From positions 1 to 56,449 of the IMG/VR virus record IMGVR_UViG_3300020159_000747: a stretch of 56,449 nucleotides of DNA; one strand, written 5' to 3'. Source of the stretch: a virus. The stretch's first letter is position 1. Each line of letters starts with the position of its first letter. The notes beneath the pieces are model-generated. The model did not search any database. It had not been told where the DNA came from and was given only the letters and a program-made list of their open reading frames with translations. This document shows, piece by piece, positions 1 to 56,449 of the stretch. The position numbers were made by a program, and so were the translations under genes.

Positions 1-1
1 C

Positions 2-39
2 TGTGGATAACTTCCCTGGAAACGTTATCAAAAATTTAC
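2..39 (+). promoter_or_regulatory. Repeated TGTGGATAAC/GTTAT element, copy 1
   Basis: TGTGGATAAC, exactly 12 unconserved bases, then GTTAT followed by an A-rich stretch ending near TTTAC. The same arrangement with identical spacing recurs at 773 and 2783. It begins 115 bases before the GTG start at 117. TGTGGATAA is the perfect complement of the DnaA box TTATCCACA, but the fixed two-part spacing ahead of genes also fits a phage promoter. I cannot tell these apart from sequence alone. Confidence 0.55.
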
Positions 40-116
40 CGTAGTGGGTTGCACGAGAGACTACTTACTATTAGATTAGGACATGTAGGAGATACCTACA
101 GAGAAGAGGGGATAAA

Positions 117-611
117 GTGATTATCCAAGACGGGGTCACTCTATATGGTGAGAGTGACGTTACCGAACTCAAAGTAGTTTGGGAAAAGCAGTGCGTTGAG
201 AATGTCACCGCACGAGTAGAGGGACAGATACAGGATAGCCTTATTACTGTATTCAAGCGCGAGATTGGTCATGGCAACATGTCCAAGGATTACGCCGTTG
301 AACTTTACAACAAAATAGCCGACGAAAATCGTTGGACACATGTAGAACAAATTGCAGTTACATACAATGTAACAGTAACCCTATTCGGCGACAGTATCTT
401 GTTCGTTGAAAATGTCGAGGCTGACTCTGAGGAAGACGCCTGCGATAAGGTTACCGAAGAACTTGACTTCTCAGATATCGAGGTCAACTTCACCGTTAGC
501 GCCCTTGGCGAGGACGCTTCTGCTACCGTCAGCGACGATTCATACTATGTGGATTTCGCTGGTATCCTGCGCGACAACATTGAGGTTAGCGCAGAAGAAA
601 ACGAGGATTAG
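117..611 (+). CDS. Hypothetical acidic protein (164 aa)
   Basis: GTG start preceded by a purine-rich GAAGAGGGG Shine-Dalgarno; the same GGGGATAAAGTGAT start context recurs at the gene at 6572. I do not recognise the family. The protein is acidic, especially in its second half, which is rich in Asp, Glu, Ser and Thr and ends in a run of acidic residues. No signal peptide, membrane segment or cysteine motif is visible. It is the first gene after regulatory copy 1 and is closed by a strong terminator at 628, so it looks like a single-gene transcription unit. Confidence 0.7.
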   Translation: MIIQDGVTLYGESDVTELKVVWEKQCVENVTARVEGQIQDSLITVFKREIGHGNMSKDYAVELYNKIADENRWTHVEQIAVTYNVTVTLFGDSILFVENVEADSEEDACDKVTEELDFSDIEVNFTVSALGEDASATVSDDSYYVDFAGILRDNIEVSAEENED

Positions 612-627
612 TAGCCCCTCTACTAAT

Positions 628-665
628 AAGCCCCCTGCCACGGACGTGTGGCAGGGGGCTTCTTT
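628..665 (+). terminator. Rho-independent terminator
   Basis: A perfect 14-bp stem (628-641 with 648-661) closes a 6-base loop GGACGT and runs into TCTTTCT. It sits 17 bases after the stop of the gene at 117-611 and ends that one-gene unit. Confidence 0.9.
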
Positions 666-681
666 CTGCCGTAAGACTATT

Positions 682-766
682 GTTTGTGTTGGGCTTGCTT
701 AGCTATTACTGCTTTATATGCTTTTATAGCGTAGCTATAAAAGCGCTAAGCAAGCCCAACACAAAC
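682..766. repeat. Nested inverted-repeat cassette A
   Basis: Perfect 22-bp outer arms (682-703 and 745-766) starting GTTTGTGTTG enclose a second perfect hairpin, GCTTTTATAGC / GCTATAAAAGC with loop GTA (720-744). The cassette lies directly after a terminator and 7 bases before regulatory copy 2. A second cassette at 2364-2479 shares the 10-bp outer arms but not the interior. It could extrude as a cruciform or be a small palindromic repeat element. The stretch 612-881 holds no gene. Confidence 0.85.
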
Positions 767-772
767 TCTGCC

Positions 773-811
773 TGTGGATAACCTACGAGAAATTGTTATA
801 CAAATGTAATC
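773..811 (+). promoter_or_regulatory. Repeated TGTGGATAAC/GTTAT element, copy 2
   Basis: TGTGGATAAC at 773-782, 12 bases, then GTTATACAAATGTAAT from 795. It is the same two-block layout as copies 1 and 3, 109 bases ahead of the start at 882. Promoter and DnaA-box readings are both open. Confidence 0.6.
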
Positions 812-881
812 GTGAGAGTGTTCCCTATATATAAGAGATAGGGTAGATTAGCAACCGCACCAAAGGGAAAAGGAGACATAT

Positions 882-1391
882 ATGTCTATGACGAGAGATG
901 AGCGAAAGTATCGCTTTTCAGAAATCATCAGCGCAATACATCTACAAGATAATGAAGCAGATAATCCTACGCTACCGCAAGGAACACTAGGGCTATCAGA
1001 CGGCAGACTAAAGAGCGCGATTATGTGCCAAGTATTCAAGGAGAAAGAGGAGTTTCAGATGAAACTCGTCAATGCGCTCGCCAATACTGCGTTAGAACCG
1101 CTAAGTGAGGAAAACGAACCTAGCGAGGACGACCTATCAGCACTATCTATCGCTATCCACACCGCTTGGGGTATGGGTGCTTTCCAACCACTACTAGGTC
1201 TATTGGGCGTGGCTGGTAAGATTAGCGCGGTCTATGATATTGACCTACCTGAGGACATAAGCCTAGTGCTTCGTCCTAATGCGTTTGCCAAGAAGTTCGG
1301 CAAGTTTGACCCATATATGATTATGGACGAGGAACAAGATGAGCAAGTCCGCTCATTACTAAAGGGAGAACAAGACAATGACGACGACTAA
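882..1391 (+). CDS. Hypothetical protein (169 aa)
   Basis: ATG start with a good AAAGGAGA Shine-Dalgarno. The family is not recognised. The N-terminal third is basic and polar, the centre is mixed helical with a Gly/Ala-rich hydrophobic stretch around residues 85-110, and the C-terminus is strongly acidic (GEQDNDDD). It is the first gene of a coupled run 882-2282, overlapping the next start by 14 bases. Nothing in the sequence assigns a function. Confidence 0.7.
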   Translation: MSMTRDERKYRFSEIISAIHLQDNEADNPTLPQGTLGLSDGRLKSAIMCQVFKEKEEFQMKLVNALANTALEPLSEENEPSEDDLSALSIAIHTAWGMGAFQPLLGLLGVAGKISAVYDIDLPEDISLVLRPNAFAKKFGKFDPYMIMDEEQDEQVRSLLKGEQDNDDD

Positions 1392-1605
1392 GGTTATCAA
1401 CGGCGTAAAAATGGTAGAGATACCATTCGCTATCAACTTCAATGTATGTATCGAGGAACACAAGTATCTCGAATATGCCACAAGTGGAGTGCCCAATGAG
1501 GCACTCGCTCAGGCTGGTATGGAATGTGTAGGCGATAGTCTTATCTCTGTTATGGAGAAGGCTAACGAAGGCTGGACAACTATGATGATAGAGGTGGCAA
1601 AGTGA
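1378..1605 (+). CDS. Hypothetical protein (75 aa)
   Basis: Starts inside the end of the preceding gene and ends at a TGA that overlaps the GTG start of the next (GTGA), which indicates translational coupling. I do not recognise it. Two scattered Cys residues (near positions 24 and 51) do not make a zinc motif. It is probably a soluble accessory protein. Confidence 0.6.
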   Translation: MTTTKVINGVKMVEIPFAINFNVCIEEHKYLEYATSGVPNEALAQAGMECVGDSLISVMEKANEGWTTMMIEVAK

Positions 1606-1751
1606 TAAAGGGATACGACTTTAGAACCTTGTTAGCAACTATCTGCCCTGATTACTCTATAGATACGGACAATGACGGACAGTTAGTTATTTATACCAAC
1701 CTACAAGACGACGGAGACGATAACTATATTCGTTTCCAATACCAAGACTAG
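1602..1751 (+). CDS. Hypothetical acidic small protein (49 aa)
   Basis: GTG start overlapping the previous stop in the form GTGA; ends TAG at 1749-1751. Begins MIKGYDFRTLLATICPDY and is rich in Asp and Tyr towards the C-terminus. Its coding nature is supported by gap-free packing between neighbours and coupled start/stop, not by homology. Confidence 0.55.
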   Translation: MIKGYDFRTLLATICPDYSIDTDNDGQLVIYTNLQDDGDDNYIRFQYQD

Positions 1752-1760
1752 GAGACGACT

Positions 1761-2282
1761 ATGGGTATGGATGTATATGGTATCGCTCCAACTAGCGAGC
1801 GCGGTGAGTATTTCCGTAATAATGTATGGTGGTGGCGACCACTATGGGATTACTGCTGTGAAGTAGATAGCACTCTAGAGGCTAGAGTGCCACAAGGTCA
1901 TTACAACGACGGCGACGGGCTAAAGACCGCAGAGGAAGCACAGGCGCTAAGCCTATTGTTGCTTCTAAAATTAGAAAGCGGTGAGGCGCTCGCCTATATC
2001 AAGGAACGAGATATGCAAATTGCCCAACTAGAATGGGATACCTGCCGTATCTGTGAAGGTTCAGGTATCAGAGAAGATAAGGTTGGCGTTGAAGGTGGTA
2101 TGCCTACTAAAGAACTGACCGAAGATATTGCTATCTTGGTAGGAAGAACGCATGGCACATGTAATGGATGTCGCGGTTTTGGTAAAACAGAACCCTTTGC
2201 AAGTCATTACCCACTAACAGAGGACAATATACGAGAGTTTGCAGAGTTTCTCCGCGATAGCGGTGGATTCCAAATCTGCTAA
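1761..2282 (+). CDS. Conserved phage protein with DnaJ-like CxxCxGxG pair (173 aa)
   Basis: Begins MGMDVYGIAPTSERGEYF, a signature I associate with a conserved uncharacterised phage/plasmid family, followed by an aromatic NNVWWWRPLWDYCC stretch. Around residues 95-135 it carries CRICEGSG and CNGCRGFG, two halves of a DnaJ-type CxxCxGxG zinc knuckle that would bind one zinc. This suggests protein or nucleic-acid binding; the exact role is unknown. It is the last gene of the 882-2282 run, with a terminator 36 bases downstream. Shine-Dalgarno GGAGACG precedes the ATG. Confidence 0.75.
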   Translation: MGMDVYGIAPTSERGEYFRNNVWWWRPLWDYCCEVDSTLEARVPQGHYNDGDGLKTAEEAQALSLLLLLKLESGEALAYIKERDMQIAQLEWDTCRICEGSGIREDKVGVEGGMPTKELTEDIAILVGRTHGTCNGCRGFGKTEPFASHYPLTEDNIREFAEFLRDSGGFQIC

Positions 2283-2317
2283 CAACCTTATCCCTTCCCC
2301 TTTGGCGATAAGAGAGG

Positions 2318-2352
2318 TAAGCCTACCGTTGCATGGGCGGTAGGCTTATTTC
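2318..2352 (+). terminator. Rho-independent terminator
   Basis: Perfect 11-bp stem TAAGCCTACCG / CGGTAGGCTTA (2318-2328, 2338-2348) with a 9-base loop, then TTTC. It closes the transcription unit 882-2282. Confidence 0.85.
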
Positions 2353-2363
2353 ATGCCCGAAAT

Positions 2364-2479
2364 GTTTGTGTTGAATCCCACCCACCCACCCTAGGGGAAT
2401 CCCCTTGAAACCCCTATTGCTATAAATACTTTGTATTTATAGCAATATTGGCTATAACGAAGTTATAGCCAACACAAAC
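2364..2479. repeat. Nested inverted-repeat cassette B
   Basis: Outer 10-bp arms GTTTGTGTTG (2364-2373) and CAACACAAAC (2470-2479) match the outer ends of cassette A. Inside are three separate hairpins: AGGGG-AAT-CCCCT (2393-2405); a perfect 14-bp stem ATTGCTATAAATAC with loop TTT (2416-2446); and a perfect 11-bp stem TTGGCTATAAC with loop GAA (2448-2472). As with cassette A, it follows a terminator directly. Confidence 0.85.
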
Positions 2480-2566
2480 CCTACGGCGTGTGGCGCTTAT
2501 CACATGAGAGATACGGCGTGTCGGCTTGAAAGGAGAGAGAGCAGAGAGTAAGTTAGGAAGTTTAGG

Positions 2567-2673
2567 CTACTGCCGAGAGAGCCGATAGGCTTATCGGGCG
2601 CAAAGCCAGACTTACGACAGGGTAGCCCTATCGGCTATATGATAAGAAGCAGAGAGAGCAGAGAGAGCAGTAG
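2567..2673 (+). other. Candidate structured non-coding region
   Basis: The 628-base gap 2283-2910 has no gene. Here nested complementary arms occur: CTACTGC (2567-2573) with GCAGTAG (2667-2673), enclosing GCCGATAGG (2581-2589) with CCTATCGGC (2627-2635). An alternative local hairpin CCGATA-GGCT-TATCGG (2582-2597) competes for the same strand. GAGA-rich spacers flank it. It could be a small RNA or a switchable leader, or a DNA-level structure. No transcript evidence is available. Confidence 0.35.
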
Positions 2674-2756
2674 TCCTATCCCTTACCTATATCTCTCTCT
2701 ATATAACAAGAGATAACCCTATTACCGCGCCGATTTTTCACAGAGAGGCATAAGAA

Positions 2757-2788
2757 GGTTGTTCATAGGTTGTTCAACAGGTTGTGGA
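2757..2788 (+). repeat. Three iteron-like GGTTGT repeats
   Basis: GGTTGTTCA at 2757 and 2768 and GGTTGTGGA at 2780 repeat with 11- and 12-base steps, about one helical turn. The third runs into the DnaA-box-like TGTGGATAA, and AT-rich DNA follows (2800-2832). The arrangement resembles a replication-origin or operator array. Confidence 0.5.
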
Positions 2789-2820
2789 TAACCCACCAAT
2801 AATCGTTATAAAAATGTAAT
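2783..2820 (+). promoter_or_regulatory. Repeated TGTGGATAAC/GTTAT element, copy 3
   Basis: TGTGGATAAC at 2783-2792, 12 bases, then GTTATAAAAATGTAAT from 2805. It lies 128 bases upstream of the AAA+ gene start at 2911 and overlaps the iteron-like repeats. Confidence 0.6.
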
Positions 2821-2910
2821 CAAATATATGCCCTGCTACCTTGCGTCAAATACGGAAATAGACTTAGATAGGAACTAAGCCAATAATGGCGACTAAGAAG
2901 GGTTACACAG

Positions 2911-4377
2911 ATGTCCTTAGCACTAATGGTCGTATCCGACGACCAACTCGAAGGACTACCTGCACAGGCACAGACACTTATCCTATCCGACGATACAGAG
3001 GTATTTATCTACCACCGCGTATCGAACGGCATGAAGGGCAGAGGTCAGGCATGGAAGCAGGTAGCCTTATCACAACTACCAAATACTCCTATCTCACACG
3101 AAGTATGCGCCGTCGTTATCAGCGACCGCGACCGCGACATGATGAAACTAGGGCAGATTACCAATATCGGTATCAAGGCGCTATACGCACTAGAAACCGC
3201 AGAAGCCGTCAATGATGAGGTTATCAGCAACCACAATGAGGTTGCAGGTAGTCTTATCGCTCGCCTAGAAATTGGCGACAATAGCCTCAATGATTACATT
3301 ACGGACAAACGCCGTAATCAGGGCGTATCTATTAAGCCTATCTTTAAGGGTGCAGATACGCCTATCGCGGAAGCAAAGACAGAGGTAGCAACCACCACTA
3401 ATAAGGTTATCGAGGTTCGACCAACCAACGAAACAAGCCTATCGCTCGTCAATGCTATGGTGAGCGTTCCCGACAAGAAGTGGGCGCAGACCTATATCAA
3501 CCGCAAGGTCGTTGATAACCTTACCGACTTCGAGGTATATGACCACGCACTAGCCAACTCCATGAATATCCTTATCGAGGGTCATGCAGGAAGCGGTAAG
3601 ACTATGAGCGCACAGGCTTACGCTAGTGCTCGTAATATGCGTTACTTCAATGTCGCTTGCCATATCGGGCTAGAGGCTTCGCACCTAGTCGGTCGTTGGA
3701 TACCAACTCCCGACGGACACTTCCGTTGGCAAGACGGCGCGGTTACGGAGATAGTCCGTAATGGTGGCGTTCTATTGTTCAACGAGATTAACTTCGCACC
3801 CGAGCGCTTTCTTACCTTTATCTTTTCTTTATTAGATTACCGCCGAGAGATACAACTAATGGAAAATGGTGGAGAAGTAATCAAGGCTCACCCCGACCTA
3901 CTAATCATGGGCGACATGAACCCCGACTATCGTGGCACACGCCCACTAAATCAGGCGCTCGCCGACCGCTTCGCAGTAAGACTATCGTTCCCATACGATA
4001 AGCCTATTGAACAGAAGTTATTAAAGAATAAATCGCTAGTGGAAATGGCAAACCAACTACGCGCCGAGTTCAACAAGGGCACACTCGCTACGCCAGTATC
4101 GACACGCTCGCTAGTAGCCTTCGTTACCAACGCCAAAGCGTTCGGCATGGAGTTCGCTACCTACAACTACATTAACTCGTTCGAGGGTGATGAGGAAAGG
4201 TCAGCAGTAAGGTTAGTAGTCAATACTCACCGCGACAATATCGCAGAGGAGTTAGGCTTAGCGGTTACTTCAATTAAAACAGAGGAAACCATTACCGAAA
4301 TGCTAGAGGATAAGATTAGCGACACTTCCGTTATGAATATCCCTATCACCAACTACCAAGCATACGCAGGTAACTAA
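2911..4377 (+). CDS. MoxR/CobS-like AAA+ ATPase (488 aa)
   Basis: The Walker A motif GHAGSGKT lies near residues 224-231 and Walker B LLFNEI near 287-292. A conserved MNPDYRGTRPLNQALADRF segment provides the sensor/arginine-finger region typical of the MoxR/CobS branch. The N-terminal ~200 residues are a phage-specific extension. Such ATPases remodel proteins together with a von Willebrand A partner, and that partner is encoded 2 bases downstream. In cobalamin synthesis CobS pairs with CobT and CobN, but no CobN is visible, so chelatase activity is not supported here. The start follows AAGAAGGG; the gene sits behind regulatory copy 3. Confidence 0.9.
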   Translation: MSLALMVVSDDQLEGLPAQAQTLILSDDTEVFIYHRVSNGMKGRGQAWKQVALSQLPNTPISHEVCAVVISDRDRDMMKLGQITNIGIKALYALETAEAVNDEVISNHNEVAGSLIARLEIGDNSLNDYITDKRRNQGVSIKPIFKGADTPIAEAKTEVATTTNKVIEVRPTNETSLSLVNAMVSVPDKKWAQTYINRKVVDNLTDFEVYDHALANSMNILIEGHAGSGKTMSAQAYASARNMRYFNVACHIGLEASHLVGRWIPTPDGHFRWQDGAVTEIVRNGGVLLFNEINFAPERFLTFIFSLLDYRREIQLMENGGEVIKAHPDLLIMGDMNPDYRGTRPLNQALADRFAVRLSFPYDKPIEQKLLKNKSLVEMANQLRAEFNKGTLATPVSTRSLVAFVTNAKAFGMEFATYNYINSFEGDEERSAVRLVVNTHRDNIAEELGLAVTSIKTEETITEMLEDKISDTSVMNIPITNYQAYAGN

Positions 4378-4379
4378 TC

Positions 4380-6284
4380 GTGTGGCGCAACGAGCAAGAT
4401 AGCCTAGATAGGCTTATGAACGAGATATATCAGAGTGCGACATGGAATAGCGATACCGCAACTATGGAATATGGCGTTGATATTGAAGCCAAGCAAGAAG
4501 CCTATCAGGAACACAAAGAGGCGCTATCAAGCGTTGGAGTTATCTACTCTCGCGCCGATAGTATTATCACAGGCGACAAGGTAGAGGTTAAGATAGACGA
4601 CGACCCCAACTTAGATACCACCGCTTACAACGACGGCAAGGCTATCGTGTTCAACGCCTCACTATTAGAGGATATTGACGATAACACTATCGTTAGCCTT
4701 CATGGGTTCAACTACCATGAGGTCGGACATATCCAATACACGCCACGCGCCAATAGCGAGTTAGGTCAATGGGTTATACAAAATAAGTATAAGCGTTGCC
4801 TAAATATCCTAGAGGATAGTCGTATCGAACGACTATTGGTAGCAAAGTATCCTGCAACGCAACCTTTCCTAGAGGCTTCGACCCTTGAATATATATTAAA
4901 GGGCGACAGTAGCGAGTGGGCTTCCCTATTTATCCTTATCACAGGTAGAAAATACCTTGATATAAATATCCGACAAGAAATTGCTACACGCTTCGCCACA
5001 AACTTCGGGCAAGCGACCGCGATAACCTTAGCGGATATTATCCATGAGTATCGGACATTATCTTTCCCCAAAGATTATGACCGCGCTAAAAGGCTTATCG
5101 CAGAGTTCTCTAAATACATGGGAACAGATGAGGATACGCCACCACCACTAATGCCAACTAACGGCAAAGGTGAGTGCGACGGACATATTGACCGAAGCAT
5201 GATGAAAAAGGGTCGCGTCGAAAGCGCTAAGGAACAAGACCGCTTACAGGAAAAAGCCGACCGCATGGAAGGTTCAACCAAGCGCGAAAACTTAGACGAT
5301 AAGCCTAGCGAGGAAGCACAACAAAGCGAAGGCGCAGGTGGCGGTGATAGTCCTATCACTACTAAAGAAGTTCAAGATAAGATGAACGACAACGATAAGG
5401 CTATTAAAGACCTTATCAACCAACAATTATCTAATCTCCAAAACAACGAAGTGGTGAAGCGCGATACCGCAGAAGTGCGTAGAGCGATTATGGATAATGA
5501 GGAAATGCGTAGCGGAGTTAAATCTGCTTCCTATTCTAATATGTCCGTAAGCATGACGGCTTCCGCAAGCGCTCGACGCTTCGCGGTGGAGTTAGAGCGA
5601 CTACGCATAGATAACGACCCTGCATGGCTACTAGAAGTAGAAAGCGGTCGCCTCAATGTCGGTCGAGCCATGAACGCCGATATAAATAACATAGATAAGT
5701 TATTTGATAGGTGGGAACAAGGTAACGATAGCAACGATATTGAAGCGGTAATCTTAGTAGATACTAGCGGTAGCATGGGCGGTCGTATCTATAAGACAAT
5801 GGAAACGGCATGGACACTAAAGCGCGGTATCGAGCGTATCAACGGCAGGGTTACTGTCTATAAGTTCAACCACGATAGTCGTATCGTATATAAAGCAGAC
5901 GATAAGGCTAAGAGTGATGAGTTTAGGTTCTGCCAAACTAGCGGTAGCACTAATCCCTTTAAGGGCTTAATCGAGGCAGAGCGTATCCTCAACGCAAGCC
6001 GTAAGGGGATAAAGATATGCTTCATTATCACCGACGGCGAGTGGGATAGCGACGACCTCAATAATCAGATTATCTCTCGCATGAATAACGCAGGTGTCTT
6101 AACACAGGTGGTATTTATCGGTAGCCTAGAGTGGTATAAAGAAAACCACCCCGACGACTACGAGAAAATGATTATCCGCTATCGTCATGGCGCTAAGTTC
6201 TTTAAGGTAGTAGATGAGGAGAAAGATATTATCGCTATCGCCAAAGACTTAGTGAAGTCGCAGATGAAGGTAGTCAGACGATAA
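4380..6284 (+). CDS. HExxH + von Willebrand A domain protein, CobT/DUF2201-like (634 aa)
   Basis: GTG start 2 bases after the AAA+ gene. Residues 113-117 read HEVGH, a zincin-type HExxH metal site. A low-complexity charged and Gly-rich linker occupies roughly residues 265-330. The C-terminal VWA domain has an intact MIDAS, DTSGS at about 461-465, and a later ITDGEWDSDD segment. MoxR-type ATPase plus VWA pairs are known as chaperone-like remodelling machines. The additional HExxH is reminiscent of the putative metallopeptidase domain of the DUF2201 families, but I cannot show proteolysis. Alternative: a CobT relative acting in cobalt insertion. Confidence 0.85.
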   Translation: MWRNEQDSLDRLMNEIYQSATWNSDTATMEYGVDIEAKQEAYQEHKEALSSVGVIYSRADSIITGDKVEVKIDDDPNLDTTAYNDGKAIVFNASLLEDIDDNTIVSLHGFNYHEVGHIQYTPRANSELGQWVIQNKYKRCLNILEDSRIERLLVAKYPATQPFLEASTLEYILKGDSSEWASLFILITGRKYLDINIRQEIATRFATNFGQATAITLADIIHEYRTLSFPKDYDRAKRLIAEFSKYMGTDEDTPPPLMPTNGKGECDGHIDRSMMKKGRVESAKEQDRLQEKADRMEGSTKRENLDDKPSEEAQQSEGAGGGDSPITTKEVQDKMNDNDKAIKDLINQQLSNLQNNEVVKRDTAEVRRAIMDNEEMRSGVKSASYSNMSVSMTASASARRFAVELERLRIDNDPAWLLEVESGRLNVGRAMNADINNIDKLFDRWEQGNDSNDIEAVILVDTSGSMGGRIYKTMETAWTLKRGIERINGRVTVYKFNHDSRIVYKADDKAKSDEFRFCQTSGSTNPFKGLIEAERILNASRKGIKICFIITDGEWDSDDLNNQIISRMNNAGVLTQVVFIGSLEWYKENHPDDYEKMIIRYRHGAKFFKVVDEEKDIIAIAKDLVKSQMKVVRR

Positions 6285-6298
6285 GATAAATATAGAGT

Positions 6299-6332
6299 TA
6301 GGGCGTGGGCTAACCCTTCCCCCCACGCCCTA
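6299..6332 (+). terminator. Terminator-like hairpin without T-tract
   Basis: Perfect 11-bp stem TAGGGCGTGGG / CCCACGCCCTA (6299-6309, 6322-6332), 15 bases after the VWA gene stop. It is followed by CACAAACTAGG rather than a T run, so termination may be weak or factor-assisted. Confidence 0.55.
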
Positions 6333-6371
6333 CACAAACTAGGGAAGTCAGGAATTAAACGGAGATGGAAC

Positions 6372-6563
6372 ATGGACATAGAAATCGAGCAAGGCACAGA
6401 CAATATAAATATAGATTACAAGGAAATGCTTAAAGTAACGCTTAACAAGATACTAGACATAGTGCAAGATACCAACCACCCGCAAGCGGAAAATCTAAAT
6501 AACCTAGCGCTTAGTGCTATTGACTATGCGTTCTACCTAGAGGACAATACTAAAATCAGATAG
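6372..6563 (+). CDS. Hypothetical small protein (63 aa)
   Basis: ATG start with CGGAGATGG upstream. An acidic, predicted helical protein with Ile/Asn-rich sequence (begins MDIEIEQGTDNINIDYKEM). No motif recognised. First gene of the small-gene run that extends to 9291. Confidence 0.55.
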   Translation: MDIEIEQGTDNINIDYKEMLKVTLNKILDIVQDTNHPQAENLNNLALSAIDYAFYLEDNTKIR

Positions 6564-6571
6564 GGGATAAA

Positions 6572-6826
6572 GTGATATACGACGAAGTATGCAAGAAATA
6601 CCTAGAGGGCGATAGTTCGGCTATTATCCTTATAGATACGGCGTTAGGTGCAAGCCTTGACCTAAACTACTTACGCGGTAGCAAGGATACCCGACTAGAT
6701 AACCTTGATTACTATGATGAACGACAAGATATTGACGAGTGGGTTGATAGCCTTACTAAGGTTATCGCAGACTTAAATCTGCAAGCGCCTATGATTACCC
6801 GATTAGATGAGATAGATGAGGAATAA
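6572..6826 (+). CDS. Hypothetical acidic protein (84 aa)
   Basis: GTG start in the context GGGGATAAAGTGAT, which is identical to that of the gene at 117 and supports this start. Acidic, Asp/Leu-rich, predicted helical. No recognised domain. Confidence 0.6.
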   Translation: MIYDEVCKKYLEGDSSAIILIDTALGASLDLNYLRGSKDTRLDNLDYYDERQDIDEWVDSLTKVIADLNLQAPMITRLDEIDEE

Positions 6827-6832
6827 AAATAA

Positions 6833-7000
6833 ATGGACTATACAAAGGAAAACCTATACTCTATGGTAAATGCGGTAGAGGAAGCGCGTAGCACAGTAAC
6901 CGACCCAAAGTTAAAAGGTAGGTTGGGAAATATATCAGACCTATTAGATAGTCTAATAGTAGAAGGATACCTAGAAAGGGAAGTAGAGGAATATGCCTAG
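6833..7000 (+). CDS. Hypothetical small protein (55 aa)
   Basis: ATG at 6833, TAG at 6998-7000. Begins MDYTKENLYSMVNAVEEARS and continues as an amphipathic helical sequence. Its stop overlaps the next start (ATGCCTAG). Function unknown; support is from packing and coupling. Confidence 0.5.
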   Translation: MDYTKENLYSMVNAVEEARSTVTDPKLKGRLGNISDLLDSLIVEGYLEREVEEYA

Positions 7001-7148
7001 ATACGAAGTGCAAGTAATCGTCAATATGGCGACAACATGGGAAGCGGAAAACGCAGACCAAGCGATAGCCCTAGCCGACGAGTGGGTCGGAGAAGAATAT
7101 GGCAACCTGAAGCACAAAGCAGACTATCGCGTCAGAGCGTTAGTTTAA
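6993..7148 (+). CDS. Hypothetical small protein (51 aa)
   Basis: ATG at 6993 inside the previous gene's last codons; TAA at 7146-7148. Begins MPRYEVQVIVNMATTWEAEN and contains an ADQAIALADEW helix. The beta-strand followed by helix resembles small phage proteins with an ERxxR-like repeat fold, but that is only an impression. Confidence 0.5.
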   Translation: MPRYEVQVIVNMATTWEAENADQAIALADEWVGEEYGNLKHKADYRVRALV

Positions 7149-7178
7149 TATATACAACAACTATTAGAGAGAAAACAA

Positions 7179-7598
7179 ATGACGGATTACGACGCTAATG
7201 GTAATGAGATTATCGACGCAGAAGTTATCGAGCATGACGACGACGCGGTAGAGGAGTTATCACCGCTACACACAGAGGTCGCGTATCACCTACAAAACAA
7301 GTTCGATAAGACTATCCCACTAAGTATGCTTGACCCATGCGTTAATGCTATTAACAAGGCTAACGAGGGGGAGTGGTATGCAGATATAGACCTTAATGGA
7401 AATAAATATAAGGGAGAGAGTGTCGCTAGTGTTGAAACTATTATCAACTCCCATGCCCTACAACAATGGGTTAAAGACCCCGATAACCTTATTACTATTA
7501 GCGACCCCGAAGGCAATATCGTGTGGAAAGGTTACGGAGAGAAACTAACCCTAGCCGACGGAAAGATACAGGAAGGAGAGGCGGTGATAGATAAATGA
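7179..7598 (+). CDS. Hypothetical acidic protein (139 aa)
   Basis: Acidic N-terminus, then NEGEWYADIDLNGNKYKGE and a helix-rich C-terminal part. The WYADIDL segment and following arrangement resemble NDWYATADL in the 108-aa protein at 14799-15125 on the other strand, so the two may be distant paralogues. ATG start after AGAGAAAACAA (weak Shine-Dalgarno). The stop overlaps the next start (ATGA). Confidence 0.6.
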   Translation: MTDYDANGNEIIDAEVIEHDDDAVEELSPLHTEVAYHLQNKFDKTIPLSMLDPCVNAINKANEGEWYADIDLNGNKYKGESVASVETIINSHALQQWVKDPDNLITISDPEGNIVWKGYGEKLTLADGKIQEGEAVIDK

Positions 7599-7765
7599 TA
7601 AGTGCAGATGTGCTAGAGGATATTAAAGACCAAGCCTCACAAATTATGTATTTCGAGGCTTCAATGCCTAATATAGACAATGCAACAAATATGCTAGTGG
7701 AGAGATTATCCGCTATTTATATGGCAGGATACGACGACGCTAACACCGACGCTGGTGATAAATAA
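7595..7765 (+). CDS. Hypothetical small protein (56 aa)
   Basis: ATG at 7595 overlapping the preceding TGA, ending TAA at 7763-7765, which in turn overlaps the next ATG (TAATG). Helical, Met- and Asp-rich (begins MISADVLEDIKDQASQIMYF). Preceded by GGAAGGAGAGG. Unknown function. Confidence 0.55.
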   Translation: MISADVLEDIKDQASQIMYFEASMPNIDNATNMLVERLSAIYMAGYDDANTDAGDK

Positions 7766-7887
7766 TGGAGAGAGTGTGTTGTTGGGAGTTACCCGAAAGT
7801 AACTCCCATGTCTATGATAGTTACTGCACCTGCTGTAGCGGAGAGTGCGATACCTGCTCTACCCCTATACCTTATGTAGTCCTTTAA
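7765..7887 (+). CDS. Cysteine-rich mini-protein (40 aa)
   Basis: ATG at 7765 (TAATG overlap), TAA at 7885-7887. Contains 7 Cys in 40 residues, including CCW, YCTCCSGECDTC. The spacing suggests metal binding or disulfides. An internal DNA hairpin GGGAGTTAC / GTAACTCCC with loop CCGAAA spans 7784-7807. Not recognised; coding status rests on tight coupling with the gene before it. Confidence 0.5.
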   Translation: MERVCCWELPESNSHVYDSYCTCCSGECDTCSTPIPYVVL

Positions 7888-7907
7888 TATAGAAAAGAGA
7901 TAATCAA

Positions 7908-8075
7908 ATGAGAGATAACGCTGGACAAGAAATACTTTACACCCAAGAAAATGCACCTACGCTGAGTGGCGGCGGTGGTGGCGGTTGTGGTTGCGGAAAC
8001 TGTGCGTGTGGAGAGAAAGATAAAGGATTAAATATAGAAAAGAAGTCTGTTACTGAAATGGACGGCGTATCGTGA
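7908..8075 (+). CDS. Gly/Cys-rich mini-protein (55 aa)
   Basis: ATG at 7908, TGA at 8073-8075. A polar N-terminal half leads to a core GGGGGGCGCGNCACGEK and a charged tail. Four Cys in eight positions (C-x-C-x2-C-x-C) could bind a metal. The leader-plus-core look is also reminiscent of modified-peptide precursors, but no modification enzyme is nearby. Its stop overlaps the next GTG (GTGA). Confidence 0.5.
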   Translation: MRDNAGQEILYTQENAPTLSGGGGGGCGCGNCACGEKDKGLNIEKKSVTEMDGVS

Positions 8076-8215
8076 GGTGCGCCAGATGTTTTTTAGAGTT
8101 CGATAAGGGAGAGATGTTATTTCCTGATGATGTATATAATGAAGAAGCAGGAGAGATTGGCTTAGCGTTCTGTGTATTATGCGCTATACCGCAAGGTAGC
8201 CCCGATAAAGTATAA
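8072..8215 (+). CDS. Zinc-ribbon mini-protein (47 aa)
   Basis: GTG at 8072 overlapping the previous TGA. CARC near the N-terminus and CVLC near residues 34-37 form a CxxC...CxxC ribbon. Such small ribbons are common in phage early regions as host-protein or nucleic-acid binders. No specific family recognised. Confidence 0.55.
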   Translation: MRCARCFLEFDKGEMLFPDDVYNEEAGEIGLAFCVLCAIPQGSPDKV

Positions 8216-8229
8216 AAAAGGAGAGAGAA

Positions 8230-8337
8230 ATGTCGCAGTGTAATTGGTGCGGAGATAATTACGAGAGTAGCCTATGGACTACTCACCTATGTATTGAACC
8301 AAAGGAGAGAGATGCAGACTTTCCTACCGCTATCTAA
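8230..8337 (+). CDS. Zinc-finger-like mini-protein (35 aa)
   Basis: ATG at 8230 after AAGGAGAGAG; TAA at 8335-8337. Contains CNWC and, 13 residues further, HLC, giving a C2HC-type finger. It overlaps the start of the downstream glycosylase-like gene by 26 bases. Confidence 0.5.
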   Translation: MSQCNWCGDNYESSLWTTHLCIEPKERDADFPTAI

Positions 8338-8725
8338 TTTTAGAGAGAGTGCTAGGGTGCTGGACATGCGCCGATTAGGTAAGCAAAGAGTTGAGGCTTA
8401 CCAAATTATGAGAGTTCTTAACGGAGAGAGTAAGGGTGGCGGTTGGCGTAACCACCCTGCCGTTCTCATGTGGAGAGATTACGAACCTGCCCTTTACGAG
8501 TATGGGCGCATAGTTTGTGTTGAGTGGCGAGAGAGAGGTTACAAGGACACCCTACTAGACAAGTTCCCTGTTGAGCCTGTAGTCTATCCTTCATGGCTAG
8601 GCGACCCCGACTTTCATAGGTCGCACCAAGCGAACCTAGTTAGGAAGTTTGCAGAGCATTATCGGCAATACTTCCCTGATGTAGATGAAACCTTGCCATA
8701 CCATTGGCCTATTACTAAGGAGTAA
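8312..8725 (+). CDS. MSMEG_6728-like / pyrimidine-dimer glycosylase-related protein (137 aa)
   Basis: I chose ATG 8312 because AAAGGAGAGAG lies just upstream and the protein then begins MQTFLPL, as family members do; a TTG 18 bases earlier is open too. Characteristic segments are RLGKQRVEAYQI, GWRNHPAVLMWRDYE and a HRSHQANLV motif near residues 105-115. Related proteins are grouped with the T4 endonuclease V (pyrimidine dimer DNA glycosylase) fold, so a DNA-repair role against UV damage is plausible. The reaction is not proven for this subfamily. Confidence 0.85.
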   Translation: MQTFLPLSNFRESARVLDMRRLGKQRVEAYQIMRVLNGESKGGGWRNHPAVLMWRDYEPALYEYGRIVCVEWRERGYKDTLLDKFPVEPVVYPSWLGDPDFHRSHQANLVRKFAEHYRQYFPDVDETLPYHWPITKE

Positions 8726-8728
8726 CAA

Positions 8729-9016
8729 GTGGGTAAAAAAGTAAATGTAGTATTTGACGCAACACTAAAGAAGAACCCTGAAAAAGGTGGCGCATGGTTA
8801 GCCCGCGTTACTACTTATGATGAGGGTATCGACGAAGGTAATGTAATTGTAACAACCGCATGGTCTAACGCGAGCGCAGGTAAGCGTTGGATTAAAGAGA
8901 TGGTTATCAAGATGACCACACGCAAGTCTGTAAAAATGGGCCCAGGAGCTACGCTTGACGCGAAGGGAAAACCGACAGAGTTTGCAGGCCAAGTTATATT
9001 TAAGAGAGAGATTTAA
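8729..9016 (+). CDS. Hypothetical basic protein (95 aa)
   Basis: GTG start 3 bases after the previous stop; AAGGAGT lies about 6 bases upstream. Beta-rich N-terminal half followed by a basic helix (SAGKRWIKEMVIKMTTRKSV). No motif I can name. Confidence 0.65.
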   Translation: MGKKVNVVFDATLKKNPEKGGAWLARVTTYDEGIDEGNVIVTTAWSNASAGKRWIKEMVIKMTTRKSVKMGPGATLDAKGKPTEFAGQVIFKREI

Positions 9017-9023
9017 TATTTAA

Positions 9024-9149
9024 ATGTCTACTTTTAACTATTCTTTTGACCCTATTGTCCCTAACGGCGATTGGAACATATCTTCACCAGTTGAAGAGAG
9101 TGAAGAAGAGTTTGAAGAGTTTGAGGTAGGTGACGACGATGAAGATTAA
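9024..9149 (+). CDS. Acidic mini-protein (41 aa)
   Basis: ATG at 9024, TAA at 9147-9149. The C-terminal half is nearly all Glu/Asp/Phe (EESEEEFEEFEVGDDDED). Strongly acidic tails of this kind occur in phage DNA mimics and protein baits, but the function is unknown. No clear Shine-Dalgarno, so coding is likely but not certain. Confidence 0.45.
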   Translation: MSTFNYSFDPIVPNGDWNISSPVEESEEEFEEFEVGDDDED

Positions 9150-9291
9150 TGTAAGTAACTACGAAGTTCTAATAGAGTTACATAAGAGACGCAGGAATAC
9201 AGAAATGGTGTCCTGCTATCACTGCGGTAGGTCTTTCTTAATTGTTAAAAACAATAAGAGAGTCTATAATTACTGCAATAGTTGTGGTTAG
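9139..9291 (+). CDS. Zinc-ribbon mini-protein (50 aa)
   Basis: ATG at 9139 inside the preceding gene, TAG at 9289-9291. A basic N-terminal helix (ELHKRRRN) is followed by CYHC and a terminal CNSC. This resembles a small nucleic-acid-binding zinc ribbon. It is the last + strand gene before the convergent terminator. Confidence 0.6.
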   Translation: MKINVSNYEVLIELHKRRRNTEMVSCYHCGRSFLIVKNNKRVYNYCNSCG

Positions 9292-9326
9292 GATTTAATA
9301 GCGCTGGGTGTTCCTCATCTCCGCCC

Positions 9327-9360
9327 TTAATTATGGCTTCCGTCCCTTCGCCATAATTAA
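9327..9360. repeat. Hairpin TTAATTATGGC / GCCATAATTAA
   Basis: Perfect 11-bp inverted repeat with a 12-base pyrimidine-rich loop, in the convergent gap between the + and - transcription units. It may assist termination or protect mRNA 3' ends. Confidence 0.7.
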
Positions 9361-9377
9361 CGCTATAGCATAAAGAA

Positions 9378-9415
9378 AGCCCCCCTAGTTCGGGTCTAGG
9401 GGGGCTCTCTACTTT
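9378..9415. terminator. Bidirectional terminator at convergent junction
   Basis: Perfect 11-bp stem AGCCCCCCTAG / CTAGGGGGGCT (9378-9388, 9396-9406), loop TTCGGGT. On the - strand it is followed by TTTCTTTAT; on the + strand by CTCTCTACTTTATAT. It ends both the left + arm and the long - strand set. Confidence 0.9.
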
Positions 9416-9421
9416 ATATAT

Positions 9422-11458: not shown

Positions 11459-11479
11459 AGTCTCCTCTTGTTTAATTGA

Positions 11480-11510: not shown

Positions 11511-11519
11511 TTGGAACTA

Positions 11520-11534: not shown

Positions 11535-11568
11535 GTTGCTAAGGTCTCTTATATGATAATAGGAAATC

Positions 11569-13600: not shown

Positions 13601-13612
13601 GTATATACCCTA

Positions 13613-51214: not shown

Positions 51215-52732
51215 TTACGCCACAGTAACGGTGGTGCCACCGTCAAACTGTCCAATTTTAATAATGATAAATTCAGCTGGACGCTGTAGAGCAACGCCAA
51301 CTTCAATGTTTACGTACCCATTGTCAATCGAGCTTTGTGGGTTGTTTTCTGCATCAACCTTTACAAAGAACGCTGCTTGTGGGGTAGCGCCTCGTAGCCC
51401 ACCCTTGCTCCAGAAATCAGTAAGGAAAGTACTGATTGAAGAGTTAATGCGGTTCCACAAGAACTCGTCGTTTGGCTCAAAGATTGCAAACTGTGTAAGG
51501 TCTGTAAGAGACTTACGTAGATAGATAAGTGTGCGACGTACAGGTACGTACTTGTCTACATATCCACCCTTTAGAGTGCGTGAACCCATGATTACAATGC
51601 CTGAACCAGGTACAAACTTGATTGCGTTTACTGGATAAGCCGCAGAGTTAAGAGTATCAAGTTCACTATTTGTTAATGTTGCCACTGAAACAACGCCTGA
51701 TACGCGAGCAAGAAGACCAGCGGGGGCCTTGAATACTCCACGTGATGCATCAGTTGTTGCGATAACGCCCATAACCGCTGCGCCAGAACCAACTGCTCTT
51801 ACACGCCCTGTGCCAGAACCAGGAGCAAGTGTTGGGTCAGAAATAAGAAGATTTGGATAATAAACAGCGGCAAGTGAGCTTGCTGTGTACTGTGCAGCCA
51901 AAGCCAACTGTACAGAGGACTCATCATAGACGCCGTCAATAACTACAAACACATCTTGACGAGAGTTTGCATAACCAATAGCTGCGTTAATAACTGGAAC
52001 GGTTGAGTTACCAGGTATATTCAAAATTAAAGATTGTTTAATGGTGTCAAAGTTTAAAAGACCATTTGAATAATCTGTATTACCTATAGCGGTTCCATTG
52101 ATTCCAGTAGCTAAAGTTTGGTTTGTTACAACAGCTGGGTTACGAGTAGAACCTGTGTTTGCTGAGTTAAGGTCAGTTAGTCGTACGTAGCCAGAAGCTG
52201 CGTTAACGATAGCTGTTGCATAACGAGCATTTGTTGCTGTCATTGAAAGGTCAACGTGACGCTCAACTAGGTTTGCATCTGTATTGCCACCGTAGTAAAC
52301 AAACAAATCAAATAGACCTGTTGTTGCTGAGTTACCAATACTGATATTAATGTTGTTACCCCAAGCTCCAGCGTTATTAGCTTGAATTTGAAGTGTTGCT
52401 GATGGGCTTGCTGCTCGGTCGGAAAGTGAACGAGTTGCTGATGTTGCGCCTGGTGCAATGCGGTTAACGTAGCACTGGCTTCCACCGTTTGTAAAGAACA
52501 TGTACACAGCAAGTGGTAAATCATTACTAGCTGCTCCTGTTCCAGTACTTGTGTTCCAAGTACCGTACAGTGTTGAGTACTGGCTCCATGATGTAATTAA
52601 TTGAGGTATTCCAACTGGACCACGGTCGTTTGCGCCAATAAATGCGCCGACAGAATCTGAGTTTGGACCAACCACAGGTGCGACAGGATTTAACGTTTCT
52701 TCAACGTAAACTCCTGGACGTAGAACTGCCAT
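51215..52732 (-). CDS. Tail sheath protein (505 aa)
   Basis: Begins MAVLRPGVYVEETLNPVAPV and has GAFIGANDRGPVGIPQLITS, then a C-terminal region with RRTLIYLRKSLTDLTQFAIF, NINSSIS-like WNRINSSISTFLTDFW, and FFVKVDAENNPQSSIDNGYV, all typical of phage sheaths. It proves a contractile tail. The ~150 residues between 120 and 330 are the variable surface domain. Confidence 0.97.
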   Translation of the reverse strand: MAVLRPGVYVEETLNPVAPVVGPNSDSVGAFIGANDRGPVGIPQLITSWSQYSTLYGTWNTSTGTGAASNDLPLAVYMFFTNGGSQCYVNRIAPGATSATRSLSDRAASPSATLQIQANNAGAWGNNINISIGNSATTGLFDLFVYYGGNTDANLVERHVDLSMTATNARYATAIVNAASGYVRLTDLNSANTGSTRNPAVVTNQTLATGINGTAIGNTDYSNGLLNFDTIKQSLILNIPGNSTVPVINAAIGYANSRQDVFVVIDGVYDESSVQLALAAQYTASSLAAVYYPNLLISDPTLAPGSGTGRVRAVGSGAAVMGVIATTDASRGVFKAPAGLLARVSGVVSVATLTNSELDTLNSAAYPVNAIKFVPGSGIVIMGSRTLKGGYVDKYVPVRRTLIYLRKSLTDLTQFAIFEPNDEFLWNRINSSISTFLTDFWSKGGLRGATPQAAFFVKVDAENNPQSSIDNGYVNIEVGVALQRPAEFIIIKIGQFDGGTTVTVA

Positions 52733-53943: not shown

Positions 53944-53952
53944 TACTAGGAT

Positions 53953-53980
53953 AAAGCAAAGAGGGGCCTTTCGGCCCCTC
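53953..53980 (-). terminator. Rho-independent terminator
   Basis: GAGGGGCC-GAAA-GGCCCCTC on the - strand with a stable tetraloop, followed by TTTGCTTT. It ends the Lys-rich gene group and splits head- or neck-side from tail genes. Confidence 0.9.
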
Positions 53981-53986
53981 AACTAC

Positions 53987-54208
53987 TTACTTCTTTTTAT
54001 CGGACTTCTTAATCTTCTTAATAATCTTGGCGTCAATCTTCTTATCCTCGGCCATGGTCTTAGGCTTCTTCTTAGCTCCGTGAGCCTTGTCAGCCTTCTC
54101 AAACTTAGCCTTTTCGTCCTTGTCAAAGCCAGCCTTCTTAAGCATCTTAGAGTCCTTCTTCTTATCCTTAGACTCTGTGTACTTGCCCTTCATAAAACCT
54201 GCAGCCAT
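53987..54208 (-). CDS. Lys-rich small protein (73 aa)
   Basis: About 40% Lys, otherwise Asp/Ala/Glu, entirely helical or disordered; begins MAAGFMKGKYTESKDKKKDS. Highly basic proteins near virion genes often bind packaged DNA. No family assigned. Confidence 0.6.
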   Translation of the reverse strand: MAAGFMKGKYTESKDKKKDSKMLKKAGFDKDEKAKFEKADKAHGAKKKPKTMAEDKKIDAKIIKKIKKSDKKK

Positions 54209-54351
54209 TACATGCCCTTCTTTCTGTTCATTACAGCTTTCTTAGCTGGGGCCTTAGTAGCAGCTTTCTTAGCAAACTTCTTGTTGGCGTCCTTTAGGGA
54301 CTTCATGCCGTGCTTATCCTTTGGCTTACCGCATCCACATGTTGCACACAT
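54208..54351 (-). CDS. Small Cys/Lys-rich protein (47 aa)
   Basis: I start at ATG 54351 (MCATCGCGKPKDKHGMKSLK) because the CATCGCG metal-knuckle look fits the N-terminus of similar phage proteins; a longer frame to 54432 is open but overlaps the upstream gene. The C-terminal half is Lys/Ala repeats. Confidence 0.6.
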   Translation of the reverse strand: MCATCGCGKPKDKHGMKSLKDANKKFAKKAATKAPAKKAVMNRKKGM

Positions 54352-54352
54352 A

Positions 54353-54493
54353 TTATTTACTCGCTTTCTTTGGTTTAGAGACTTTCTTTTTTCCAGAACC
54401 TGCAGGGACGCAGTTCGGAACCTTCTTGCCACCCTTAGTCTTCATGCCTACTTGAACGTAGCCATCCCAACAAGGGTTAGTATCTTTAGCCAT
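54353..54493 (-). CDS. Conserved small phage protein NPCWDGY type (46 aa)
   Basis: Begins [20 protein letters not shown] and continues GGKKVPNCVPAG, a pattern I associate with short proteins in T4-like marine and freshwater phages, often at the virion/protease region. Lys-rich tail. TAATATG spacing to the next gene. Confidence 0.65.
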   Translation of the reverse strand: MAKDTNPCWDGYVQVGMKTKGGKKVPNCVPAGSGKKKVSKPKKASK

Positions 54494-55518
54494 TATGCTG
54501 GTCCAATTGTTGTAATCGTTCCTGAAGAACCTCTGTACTTCAAGGCTCCAGCTTCTACATAAAGGATTCCGCCGCCTGTTAAGTTAGCGGTGGGGGCTGT
54601 TCCATTTTGCATAAGAAGCTTATCTGCGTTTATATTCTGGAAATAATCAATAGAGTTAGTAGTTCCACCAGTGCCTGATAGTGCCACTAGGGTTGACCCT
54701 GGCTTATCAAATACGCAGTTGAAGATTGAGTAAAAGCCGTTTAGTACAACTGGGGCAACACTGTTTAATGCTGAGGTTAGTAGTTGAGAGTTTGCTAGAG
54801 TAACAACGGTTCCAGCAGCAGAGGTAACAGCATTAGTTGCTGCGGCAACTACCACTGTCTGTACTAGGCTTAAACTTCCAGCAGTTAAAACTGGGGAGAC
54901 AGTGCTTCCGTTTTTAACAAGAACATTCGCGCTTGCGTTATTGACAGTTATAAAGTTTGTATTACCACCATAAATATCAACTATTCCGCTTCCAGTAATG
55001 CTTGCAGCACCAAAGTCTGTTAAACGAATAAGCGTGTATGGGGCAGTGCTGCTCTTTGTAAGAGTTCCAGAAATATCGCAGTTAAGTATGTTTACATTTC
55101 CCGCACCAGTTGGTGTAGTAACAGTTAAGTTTGTCATCTTTAATCCTGCAATAGTGCAACCAGTATTTGTGCTTACAGTTCCAGAAATTAAAGTGTTTCC
55201 TCCAACAAGACCAGGGGCAGTTAATACTGTGTATTGGTATGTAATTGATGGGTTTTCTGTATAGGTGCCTGGGTGAATAATAACTGTTCGTCTGTCACCT
55301 GCTACTAAGGTAAGCGCTTTAGTGATAGTAGCTACTGGTTTTAATAGGTCACCATTACCAGTAGTGTCGTTTCCATCTACTTGGCTAACGTGGATTTCTT
55401 GGTCATAGCCAGTAAATGTGGCTTGCTTTCCAGAGACTTCAGCGTCTAGAACGTCGAGAGCGGTGTTAAGAGTAACACCCCAACCGATAGCACCAATTGT
55501 AGGTTTAATAACTGCCAT
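54493..55518 (-). CDS. Right-handed beta-helix virion protein (341 aa)
   Basis: I start at ATG 55518 with GGAGC upstream (two more residues open from TTG). Thr/Asn/Gly-rich strands with periodic short repeats, [15 protein letters not shown] opening like a pectate-lyase fold and [20 protein letters not shown] in the body. Probably a fibre or decoration protein that binds the host surface. No catalytic residues evident. Confidence 0.7.
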
Positions 55519-55520
55519 AA

Positions 55521-56096
55521 TCAAGCTCCTCCGTAATATTCATTGCCGTAATAACCTTCACCGTAACCAACGTTAACAGAGGCATAGGTTAAAAATTGCG
55601 GGTCGTTGACCATTTCTTCAGGCATTAACTGAATACAGTCTACGCTTAGGATAGTGAACCTGTCTGCCACAATGCCGCGCTCTTGGATAGCAAATGGGCG
55701 ATATACCTGTCCACGCCAAACTACACGGTCGCGGTTATTGATATCTGGACGGATAATAATGTTAGGAGCAAACTTCTGTACATCTTCAATGTTGAAAGTT
55801 AGATGTAAAGTATCTGAGTTGTAGTAACCAACCGATGAAGTCTTGGCCTCACCCTGCTTGATAACAGCTCTGACTACAGGAACTGAGAACGGTCCAGTCC
55901 AGACTTTGCCACCCATAGAAGAGGAGATGTCTTGTCCGACATCATACAAAGGGTCTACATCAGAGTTAAAGGAATCAAATATATACCAAAGGGCTTTTGT
56001 TCCTACTGAGTGTTTTAAATCAGAATCGATACCTTTAAGAAGGTCAGTGGTCTCGTAGTCAGCGTCAAACCGACCCCCAGGTGTGTGAGCTCTCAC
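55521..56096 (-). CDS. Neck/head-region hypothetical protein (191 aa)
   Basis: Beta-rich with an aromatic C-terminus ([15 protein letters not shown]). Contains [20 protein letters not shown] and [19 protein letters not shown], reminiscent of head-completion proteins. Coupled with the neighbouring genes (4-base overlaps). Not recognised with certainty. Confidence 0.55.
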
Positions 56097-56449
56097 TTAA
56101 CTCCCTCTCTGTAGAACTCTAGATTACTATTTAAACGCTCATCTGTAGGGTTAAGCTCTACCGCCTTCTTCCCATATTCCAAAGCTTGAGTGCGCTCGCC
56201 AAGCCAGTAAGCACAAACAGCAGCCAAGTCATACGGAACTGAGCCCCAAGCAAAGGCTTCATTAAGATAATCCATCTGCCTATCTTTTACATTTAAAGCT
56301 TTTTTGCAAAGTGTAAGACACTCGCTCCATCTGCCGTTGTCGTAATGGTATTGAGCTAGCTCAACATATGCTTCTCTTTTATTAGGCTCTTCTTGCATTG
56401 CCAACTTCCACCATTTAAGTTTCTCTTCTTCTTCAGTAGAACACTTAGC
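56093..56449 (-). CDS. TPR-containing protein, partial (at least 119 codons)
   Basis: Truncated by the right edge: the frame stays open to 56449, so the real start is outside. Two TPR-like units are visible (AYVELAQYHYDNGRWSECLT; AVCAYWLGERTQALEYGKKA). The LKWWKLAMQEEPNKREAY lead-in is typical of the C-terminal TPR tail of phage glycosyltransferase-like proteins. Only the tail is seen, so the enzyme is a guess. Confidence 0.75.
   Translation of the reverse strand, partial: AKCSTEEEEKLKWWKLAMQEEPNKREAYVELAQYHYDNGRWSECLTLCKKALNVKDRQMDYLNEAFAWGSVPYDLAAVCAYWLGERTQALEYGKKAVELNPTDERLNSNLEFYREGVK

Follow-up and report, generated by a model that had tools for sequence, protein, structure and literature searches.

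The IMG/VR virus record IMGVR_UViG_3300020159_000747 (hereafter the window, meaning the whole stretch of 56,449 bases, class linear) lacks the palindromic tetramers GATC and CCGG over its entire length and has lost several further palindromes in its left segment only. The window probably comes from a longer genome, that of a phage with a contractile tail and a WhiB gene, distant kin of Streptomyces phage BRock. We consider it probable that these losses reflect two-tier avoidance of restriction sites by an actinophage, with an early-exposed segment and counter-restriction. Site ratios are written observed/expected, W denotes the window, and G and L numbers denote related records and loci.

Loss of GATC and CCGG across the window and its relatives

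A string count gave the following result:

1-56449, both strands: GATC 0 and CCGG 0

An earlier note on this DNA had reported no GATC in 56 kb, and the count bears this out. We compared all 256 tetramers with a maximal-order Markov expectation, as that note had proposed, and observed 0 GATC against 164 expected (z −16). Expected GATC was 161.6 by order-2 simulation, 145 by an order-1 model, and 157 in coding sequence by codon-preserving shuffles of 65 window genes. CCGG was expected 79 times (maximal-order Markov), 102 times (order-1) or 67 times (codon shuffles, coding sequence). The two sites had the lowest scores among the 256 tetramers, and of the 16 palindromic tetramers only these two were at zero window-wide. 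The removal is not of one tetramer only, as had been claimed: CCGG is missing just as completely, and the left segment has lost further sites. Each of the three reading frames of the window genes contained GATA, GATT and GATG; GATC was at zero in every frame and also outside genes. Specific palindromic sites in the window are far below composition- and codon-matched expectation. The absences, and their independence from codon content and reading frame, were observed directly.

To place the window among relatives, we used two of its genes:

26866-28866, minus: DNA polymerase I (PolA), basis of the relatives' tree (Pfam DNA_pol_A, 2.9e-89)
51215-52732, minus: tail sheath protein (Pfam Phage_sheath_1C, 7.8e-11; tblastn match to the BRock sheath)

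Among 37 loci found by the sheath, 29 had zero GATC and CCGG, 1 was without GATC only and 7 had both sites. For the PolA tree we used the best 80 of 195 relatives and called a site avoided at 12% of expectation or less. The other four tree rows were W, BRock, G004 and G023, and 24 loci carried a whole-contig label. Both sites were lost in 65 of the 80 relatives (four of these had also lost TCGA and one GTAC); 5 were without GATC only, 5 without CCGG only, and 5 had lost neither. The lost-set label changed at least 11 times on this tree (shuffled mean 22), so that switching among relatives was observed directly. One of the 11 changes rests on L046, whose sole CCGG lies at contig base 7 and may be an error. 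The relatives check that the note had proposed gave four genomes of 95.5-98 kb with exactly zero GATC and CCGG (G001, G002, G003, G064); these are the longest both-avoiding relatives. G027 had one CCGG in 44 kb. GATC was intermediate in G020 (12/46) and L307 (7/27). In G020 (17,269 bases) the GATC sites are spread along the contig with CCGG at 0/27, a possible intermediate in the gain or loss of GATC avoidance.

A PolA query from G004 returned more avoiders together with a subclade in which GATC was normal or in excess; ACGT was low in one of its branches. GATC was in excess in the non-avoiders G004 (350/237) and G062 (524/247). In G062 (L300; 81,009 bases) GATC was thus about twice expectation and ACGT a quarter of it (54/220). 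This subclade looks as if its host restriction repertoire had changed. BRock (Borockvirus) is kin by PolA and sheath but keeps both sites near expectation (GATC 473/458, CCGG 400/395; 100 of 112.5 kb read). Another isolated and culturable Streptomyces phage, Jay2Jay (L574-L576), had GATC at 0/609 over the 130 kb read and would allow complete GATC loss to be studied in the laboratory.

We tested all 256 tetramers with an expectation above 12 in 32 records. Those below 20% of expectation were palindromes only; some non-palindromic tetramers were down to 23-35% (e.g. TGTG in G030). The earlier note had attributed the absence of GATC to a GATC-cutting or methyl-dependent system. Long-term sequence-specific restriction pressure fits these data, as the lost tetramers are palindromes of the Type II kind and relatives differ in the set that they have lost. 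A methyl-dependent enzyme is less consistent with the data, because three DNA methylase families (PF01555, PF00145, PF02086) were each matched in 0 of 20 records.

Whole-genome site loss is already known. The parts of the study of double-stranded DNA phages by Rusinov and others on which we draw describe elimination of palindromic Type II sites, complete or almost complete in about one tenth of viral genomes (PMC6286503). Here, by comparison with those parts, two sites are at exact zero over long genomes of one family, with sets that switch on the tree. Loss of GATC can have another origin: its absence from phiX174 is reported to be linked to mismatch-repair escape (PMC5014478). Host composition, or mismatch repair and Dam use, is nevertheless a scarcely credible source of the losses reported here, as it leaves CCGG, GTAC, AGCT, TCGA and the segment limits unexplained. 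The codon-preserving and Markov controls and the GATC excess in G004 and G062 also stand against composition.

A site desert confined to the left segment

Windowed counts showed that palindromes other than GATC and CCGG were lost in one place only. The site-free runs were as follows (no strand assigned):

1-13737: GTAC-free run; first GTAC at 13,738; next longest run 1,569
645-10628: ACGT-free run; next longest run in the window 1,315
734-8946: AGCT-free run; next longest run 1,702
1-8705: GGCC-free run; next longest run 4,351

All 169 GTAC sites of the window lie at 13,738 or beyond. We performed codon-preserving shuffles of the 17 genes in 700-9,300, considering sites with a shuffle mean of at least 8. 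The segment had 0 GTAC (mean 18.9), 0 ACGT (13.9), 1 AGCT (26.5) and 3 GGCC (15.3). Degenerate sites were also reduced, namely GANTC (2; 20.5), GCNGC (1; 13.0), GGNCC (2; 8.1), TGWCA (0; 16.0) and some others. To the right of 13,740, only GATC, CCGG and CCSGG (which contains CCGG) were at 30% or less of the shuffle mean. The sites lost in the segment were near normal further right (GGCC 0.63). These restriction sites are therefore excluded from the segment only, and its position was observed directly.

Two adjacent genes lie within the desert:

2911-4377, plus: AAA_5 (MoxR-like) ATPase (Pfam AAA_5, 1.9e-22)
4380-6284, plus: von Willebrand A (VWA) domain protein (Pfam VWA, 3.1e-06)

In the orthologue sets assembled for this comparison, 12 non-avoiding records were left out and W and some partial avoiders were included. 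AGCT was at 0/77 over 12 AAA orthologues and 0/106 over 13 VWA orthologues, the window included in each. In the PolA genes used for comparison, AGCT was at 263/326 in 29. The adjacent pair (2911-6284) looks like a two-gene machine of unknown role.

We then assessed region-only loss in relatives, defined as a tetramer at 25% or less in the region and at least 45% elsewhere, with regions picked by eye after windowed counts. At least one site was lost in this way in 12 of the 13 genomes tested, the exception being G061:

W: ACGT, AGCT, GGCC, GTAC
G005: ACGT, AGCT, GGCC
G063: ACGT, AGCT, GGCC, TGCA
G027: AGCT, GGCC, GTAC
G002: AGCT, TGCA
G001, G003, G006, G008: AGCT
G064, G069: GGCC
G004: TGCA (0/40)
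G061: none

Most of the relatives tested, though not all, thus show the desert at this operon. In extreme form it also sits at the corresponding region of two distant relatives, G107 and G108, wider-family members in which 56 and 57 of 115 G002 proteins were matched. Each had ten tetramers at 15% or less in the segment; outside it, GATC and TCGA alone were far under expectation. In the coding sequence of the last 13.5 kb of G107, relative to the shuffle mean, we observed AGCT 0/48, TCGA 0/34, GTAC 0/31, GGCC 0/24, TGCA 0/22, GATC 0/37, ACGT 1/26, GCGC 1/15, CCGG 1/14 and CGCG 1/12. CATG (26/24) and CTAG (58/58) were not depleted there. In bases 10,000-70,000 of G107, tetramers were at 0.73-1.2 of the mean except GATC (21/141) and TCGA (59/103).

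The left segment might instead be a module recently imported from a phage of a host with other restriction enzymes, the desert being inherited history. Phages are mosaic, lost-site sets differ between relatives, and the main genes of the segment, including AAA and VWA, are on the plus strand while most other window genes are on the minus strand (open reading frame list). We regard such an import as unlikely. The segment is also fully without GATC and CCGG, and the AAA and VWA orthologues of diverged relatives are AGCT-free. The rival is further weakened because each site has its own run end (8,705 for GGCC, 8,946 for AGCT, 10,628 for ACGT and 13,737 for GTAC) and because the desert recurs in diverged relatives, G107 and G108 among them.

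Gene content, phage-encoded enzymes and host

The window encodes PolA, RecA, DnaB, primase, a B12-dependent ribonucleotide reductase, baseplate J, tail sheath and WhiB. Its nearest named relatives by tblastn were BRock and its kin (PolA 39-40%, sheath 37-39% identity); no phage record was matched by megablast of window bases 1-25,000. Homologous PolA and sheath together with a WhiB gene place the window among BRock-like contractile-tailed actinophages, and WhiB and the BRock kinship point to an actinobacterial host. Judged by the length of the longest relatives, the window most likely belongs to a genome of ~95-98 kb, of which it is a part. PolA searched against genome contigs gave listed matches of 36% identity or less, none titled as an actinobacterium. 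WhiB had 0 matches in 20 of the 80 genomes from that scan. Other genes of the window were:

882-1391, plus: gene of unknown function in the segment, cluster c98 (open reading frame; cluster in relatives; no Pfam or PHROG match)
1761-2282, plus: gene of unknown function in the segment, cluster c112 (open reading frame; cluster in relatives; no Pfam or PHROG match)
8294-8725, plus: pyrimidine dimer DNA glycosylase, on the right side of the desert (Pfam Pyr_excise, 1.8e-23)
9422-11458, minus: B12-dependent ribonucleoside-triphosphate reductase, first large gene past the plus-strand block (TIGR02505, 1.6e-104)
11569-13035, minus: PHROG 887 protein, named 'queuine tRNA-ribosyltransferase' (2.2e-55)
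24347-24664, minus: WhiB-type transcription factor, actinophage marker (Pfam WhiB, 3.2e-17)
31092-32681, minus: SNF2-type helicase (Pfam SNF2-rel_dom, 2.8e-33)

Three transfer RNA genes (Gln, Gly, Asn) at 30866-31091 adjoin the SNF2 helicase gene. Unusual phage cargo included a SpoVS protein (20581-20859) and a protein whose G002 set includes an HSP20 match (19502-20041).

The PHROG 887 protein has a possible DNA or RNA modification function. Its presence would suit an account in which sites escaping a DpdA-type 7-deazaguanine base modification were removed. We consider this highly improbable, as the PHROG 887 cluster occurs in avoiders and equally in BRock and in G004, a non-avoider.

Phage-encoded nucleases that degrade host DNA by cutting at GATC and CCGG, and so force site loss, would likewise agree with a complete absence over whole genomes and with lost sets that switch. 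G002 proteins included an HNH_3 match (6.8e-06) and a PHROG 'nuclease' (9.1e-23). We scanned 88 of the 160 called G002 genes against Pfam, PHROGs and PADLOC, with the best 25 of 41 Pfam and 25 of 57 PHROG families listed. No restriction-enzyme family was among the matches listed for relatives in these scans, and because of that listing we claim enzyme absence in G002 only for the matches listed. PADLOC gave three families on the 88 proteins (best mad1, 9.3e-08), none a restriction enzyme by name. RE_HpaII (PF09561) was found in 0 of 30 records; other restriction-enzyme families were not searched one by one. We also scanned 36 of the 41 G004-specific proteins against Pfam. Three clusters were common to the four 95-98 kb both-avoiders and absent in G004 and G061. 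One was the DUF932 gene considered below, and the two others were also in G062, a non-avoider. Taken with the PADLOC and RE_HpaII results, this makes a phage nuclease a poor candidate, and we judge it very unlikely.

The segment-head gene and a proposed two-tier account

At its head the segment has a slot that, in the relatives' contigs covering it, was occupied by a DUF932 gene (TIGR03299/DUF932; TIGR03299, 9.2e-55) ten times, always in both-avoiders, and by ArdC three times, in the non-avoiders G004, G061 and G067. ArdC is reported to help a plasmid get past restriction (PMC7213743). DUF932 had 0 matches in the window, which seems to start just short of the slot. Any early counter-defence genes of the segment would be those in the relatives' slot, DUF932 being a candidate for such a function. 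Among relatives' records, many of which are fragments, DUF932 was found in 8 of 20 and 7 of 35, and ArdC in 1 of 42, 2 of 14 and 0 of 35. More widely, DUF932 was matched in 545 phage and 116 plasmid records. It lay 1.2-2.7 kb from the record start in the 60 listed of the 545 phage records, all Streptomyces phages. In Jay2Jay it was near the genome ends, within a block repeated at both ends. A DUF932 AlphaFold model (predicted local distance difference test score 76) had no PDB match at E ≤ 0.001. No anti-restriction gene was named near DUF932 in the stretches of three plasmids examined; an N-6 DNA methylase was near it in plasmid pPNAP01.

Other DUF932 carriers were without GATC only, or without CCGG only plus other sites. 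Complete losses at DUF932 loci comprised CCGG and CGCG in L485, CCGG and TCGA in L495, CCGG, AGCT and CGCG in L513, and CATG, CCGG, CGCG, GCGC and GGCC in L524.

We performed a position test in 20 genomes with DUF932 or ArdC, comparing the lowest 8-kb site window with the marker gene. The lowest window was nearer to the gene than chance (combined P = 3e-5). This value is too good because most of the 20 genomes are related and five do not fit. Only G109, G111, G117 and G118 are unrelated phages (9-12 of 115 G002 proteins matched), and in these four the nearness to DUF932 was weak (combined P = 0.038). G107, G108 and G114 are members of the wider family (56-62 of 115 G002 proteins matched).

The genome-wide zero suggests that GATC and CCGG enzymes reach all parts of the DNA, and the losses restricted to one segment suggest that only this segment is harmed by other enzymes. 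In the two-tier account, GATC and CCGG would have been purged genome-wide by host Type II enzymes of these specificities, met by all phage DNA and not neutralised. Further Type II sites would have been purged only from a segment of 8-14 kb that may enter, or lie exposed, first. This segment, a putative early operon, would express a counter-restriction function, after which the rest of the genome could keep the second set of sites. The best candidate for that function would be the TIGR03299/DUF932 gene at the segment head in relatives, replaced by ArdC in one subclade. Early entry followed by a counter-restriction product would be the simplest account of the segmental loss. A more specific version holds that a self-scrubbed early segment, which in the extreme members has lost about ten palindromic tetramers, is the first to enter and produces a novel anti-restriction protein active against Type II enzymes broadly (TIGR03299/DUF932), leaving only resistant GATC and CCGG enzymes to shape the rest. 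We offer this version tentatively and think it somewhat likelier to be wrong than right.

Two known systems resemble this arrangement. The first-step-transfer DNA of phage T5 lacks EcoRI sites. This terminal segment (AY543070) enters first and carries pre-early genes, whereas for the window phage the entry order is what we infer. In its 10.2 kb, EcoRI, EcoRV, HindIII and BamHI sites were all at 0 (expected 2.4, 3.9, 4.5 and 1.5), and T5 10-50 kb was also poor (EcoRI 3/16, EcoRV 1/12, HindIII 6/20, BamHI 1/7). In conjugative plasmid leading regions, first-entering DNA likewise carries counter-defence genes. A word search of the main text of that report found no DUF932, ArdC or 'restriction site' (PMC11541004), and here the segment itself is scrubbed. 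The parts consulted of PMC6286503 treat whole genomes, whereas the second tier here is confined to one segment. The full-text literature searched, which leaves out most subscription papers, yielded no account of a desert restricted to an early segment.

Several observations weigh against the two-tier account. G061 showed no region-only loss at all. L458, a close relative with DUF932, keeps GATC at 26/30 (CCGG 7/22); because of this, the gene does not define avoidance, and we rejected it as a strict marker. The Jay2Jay terminal repeat with DUF932 is no desert. Five of the 20 genomes misfit the position test (G001, G004, G061, G064, G118). The exchange of ArdC for DUF932 is weak evidence because it may be a single event. 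In T5, taken as a control, four-base palindromes were at 0.83 in first-step-transfer DNA and at 0.97 in 10-50 kb, no more than a mild reduction. Methylation data on actinobacteria also bear on the account. 5-methylcytosine is hard to detect by single-molecule real-time (SMRT) sequencing. In the part consulted of a Lake Biwa SMRT study, no methylated motif and no methyltransferase were reported in seven actinobacterial bins, which were 17-77% complete (PMC6329791). Finally, we infer the host enzymes, the early expression and the DUF932 role, as well as the DNA entry order.

If the two-tier account is true, maps of regional versus genome-wide site loss would read out the entry order and the enzymes that an anti-restriction protein can stop. 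A segment desert with sharp, site-specific limits would record which part of a genome is exposed before counter-defence. Such deserts would help to locate anti-restriction genes and to deduce the entry order and host enzymes of uncultured phages. DUF932, a common phage and plasmid gene, is nominated as a counter-restriction candidate.

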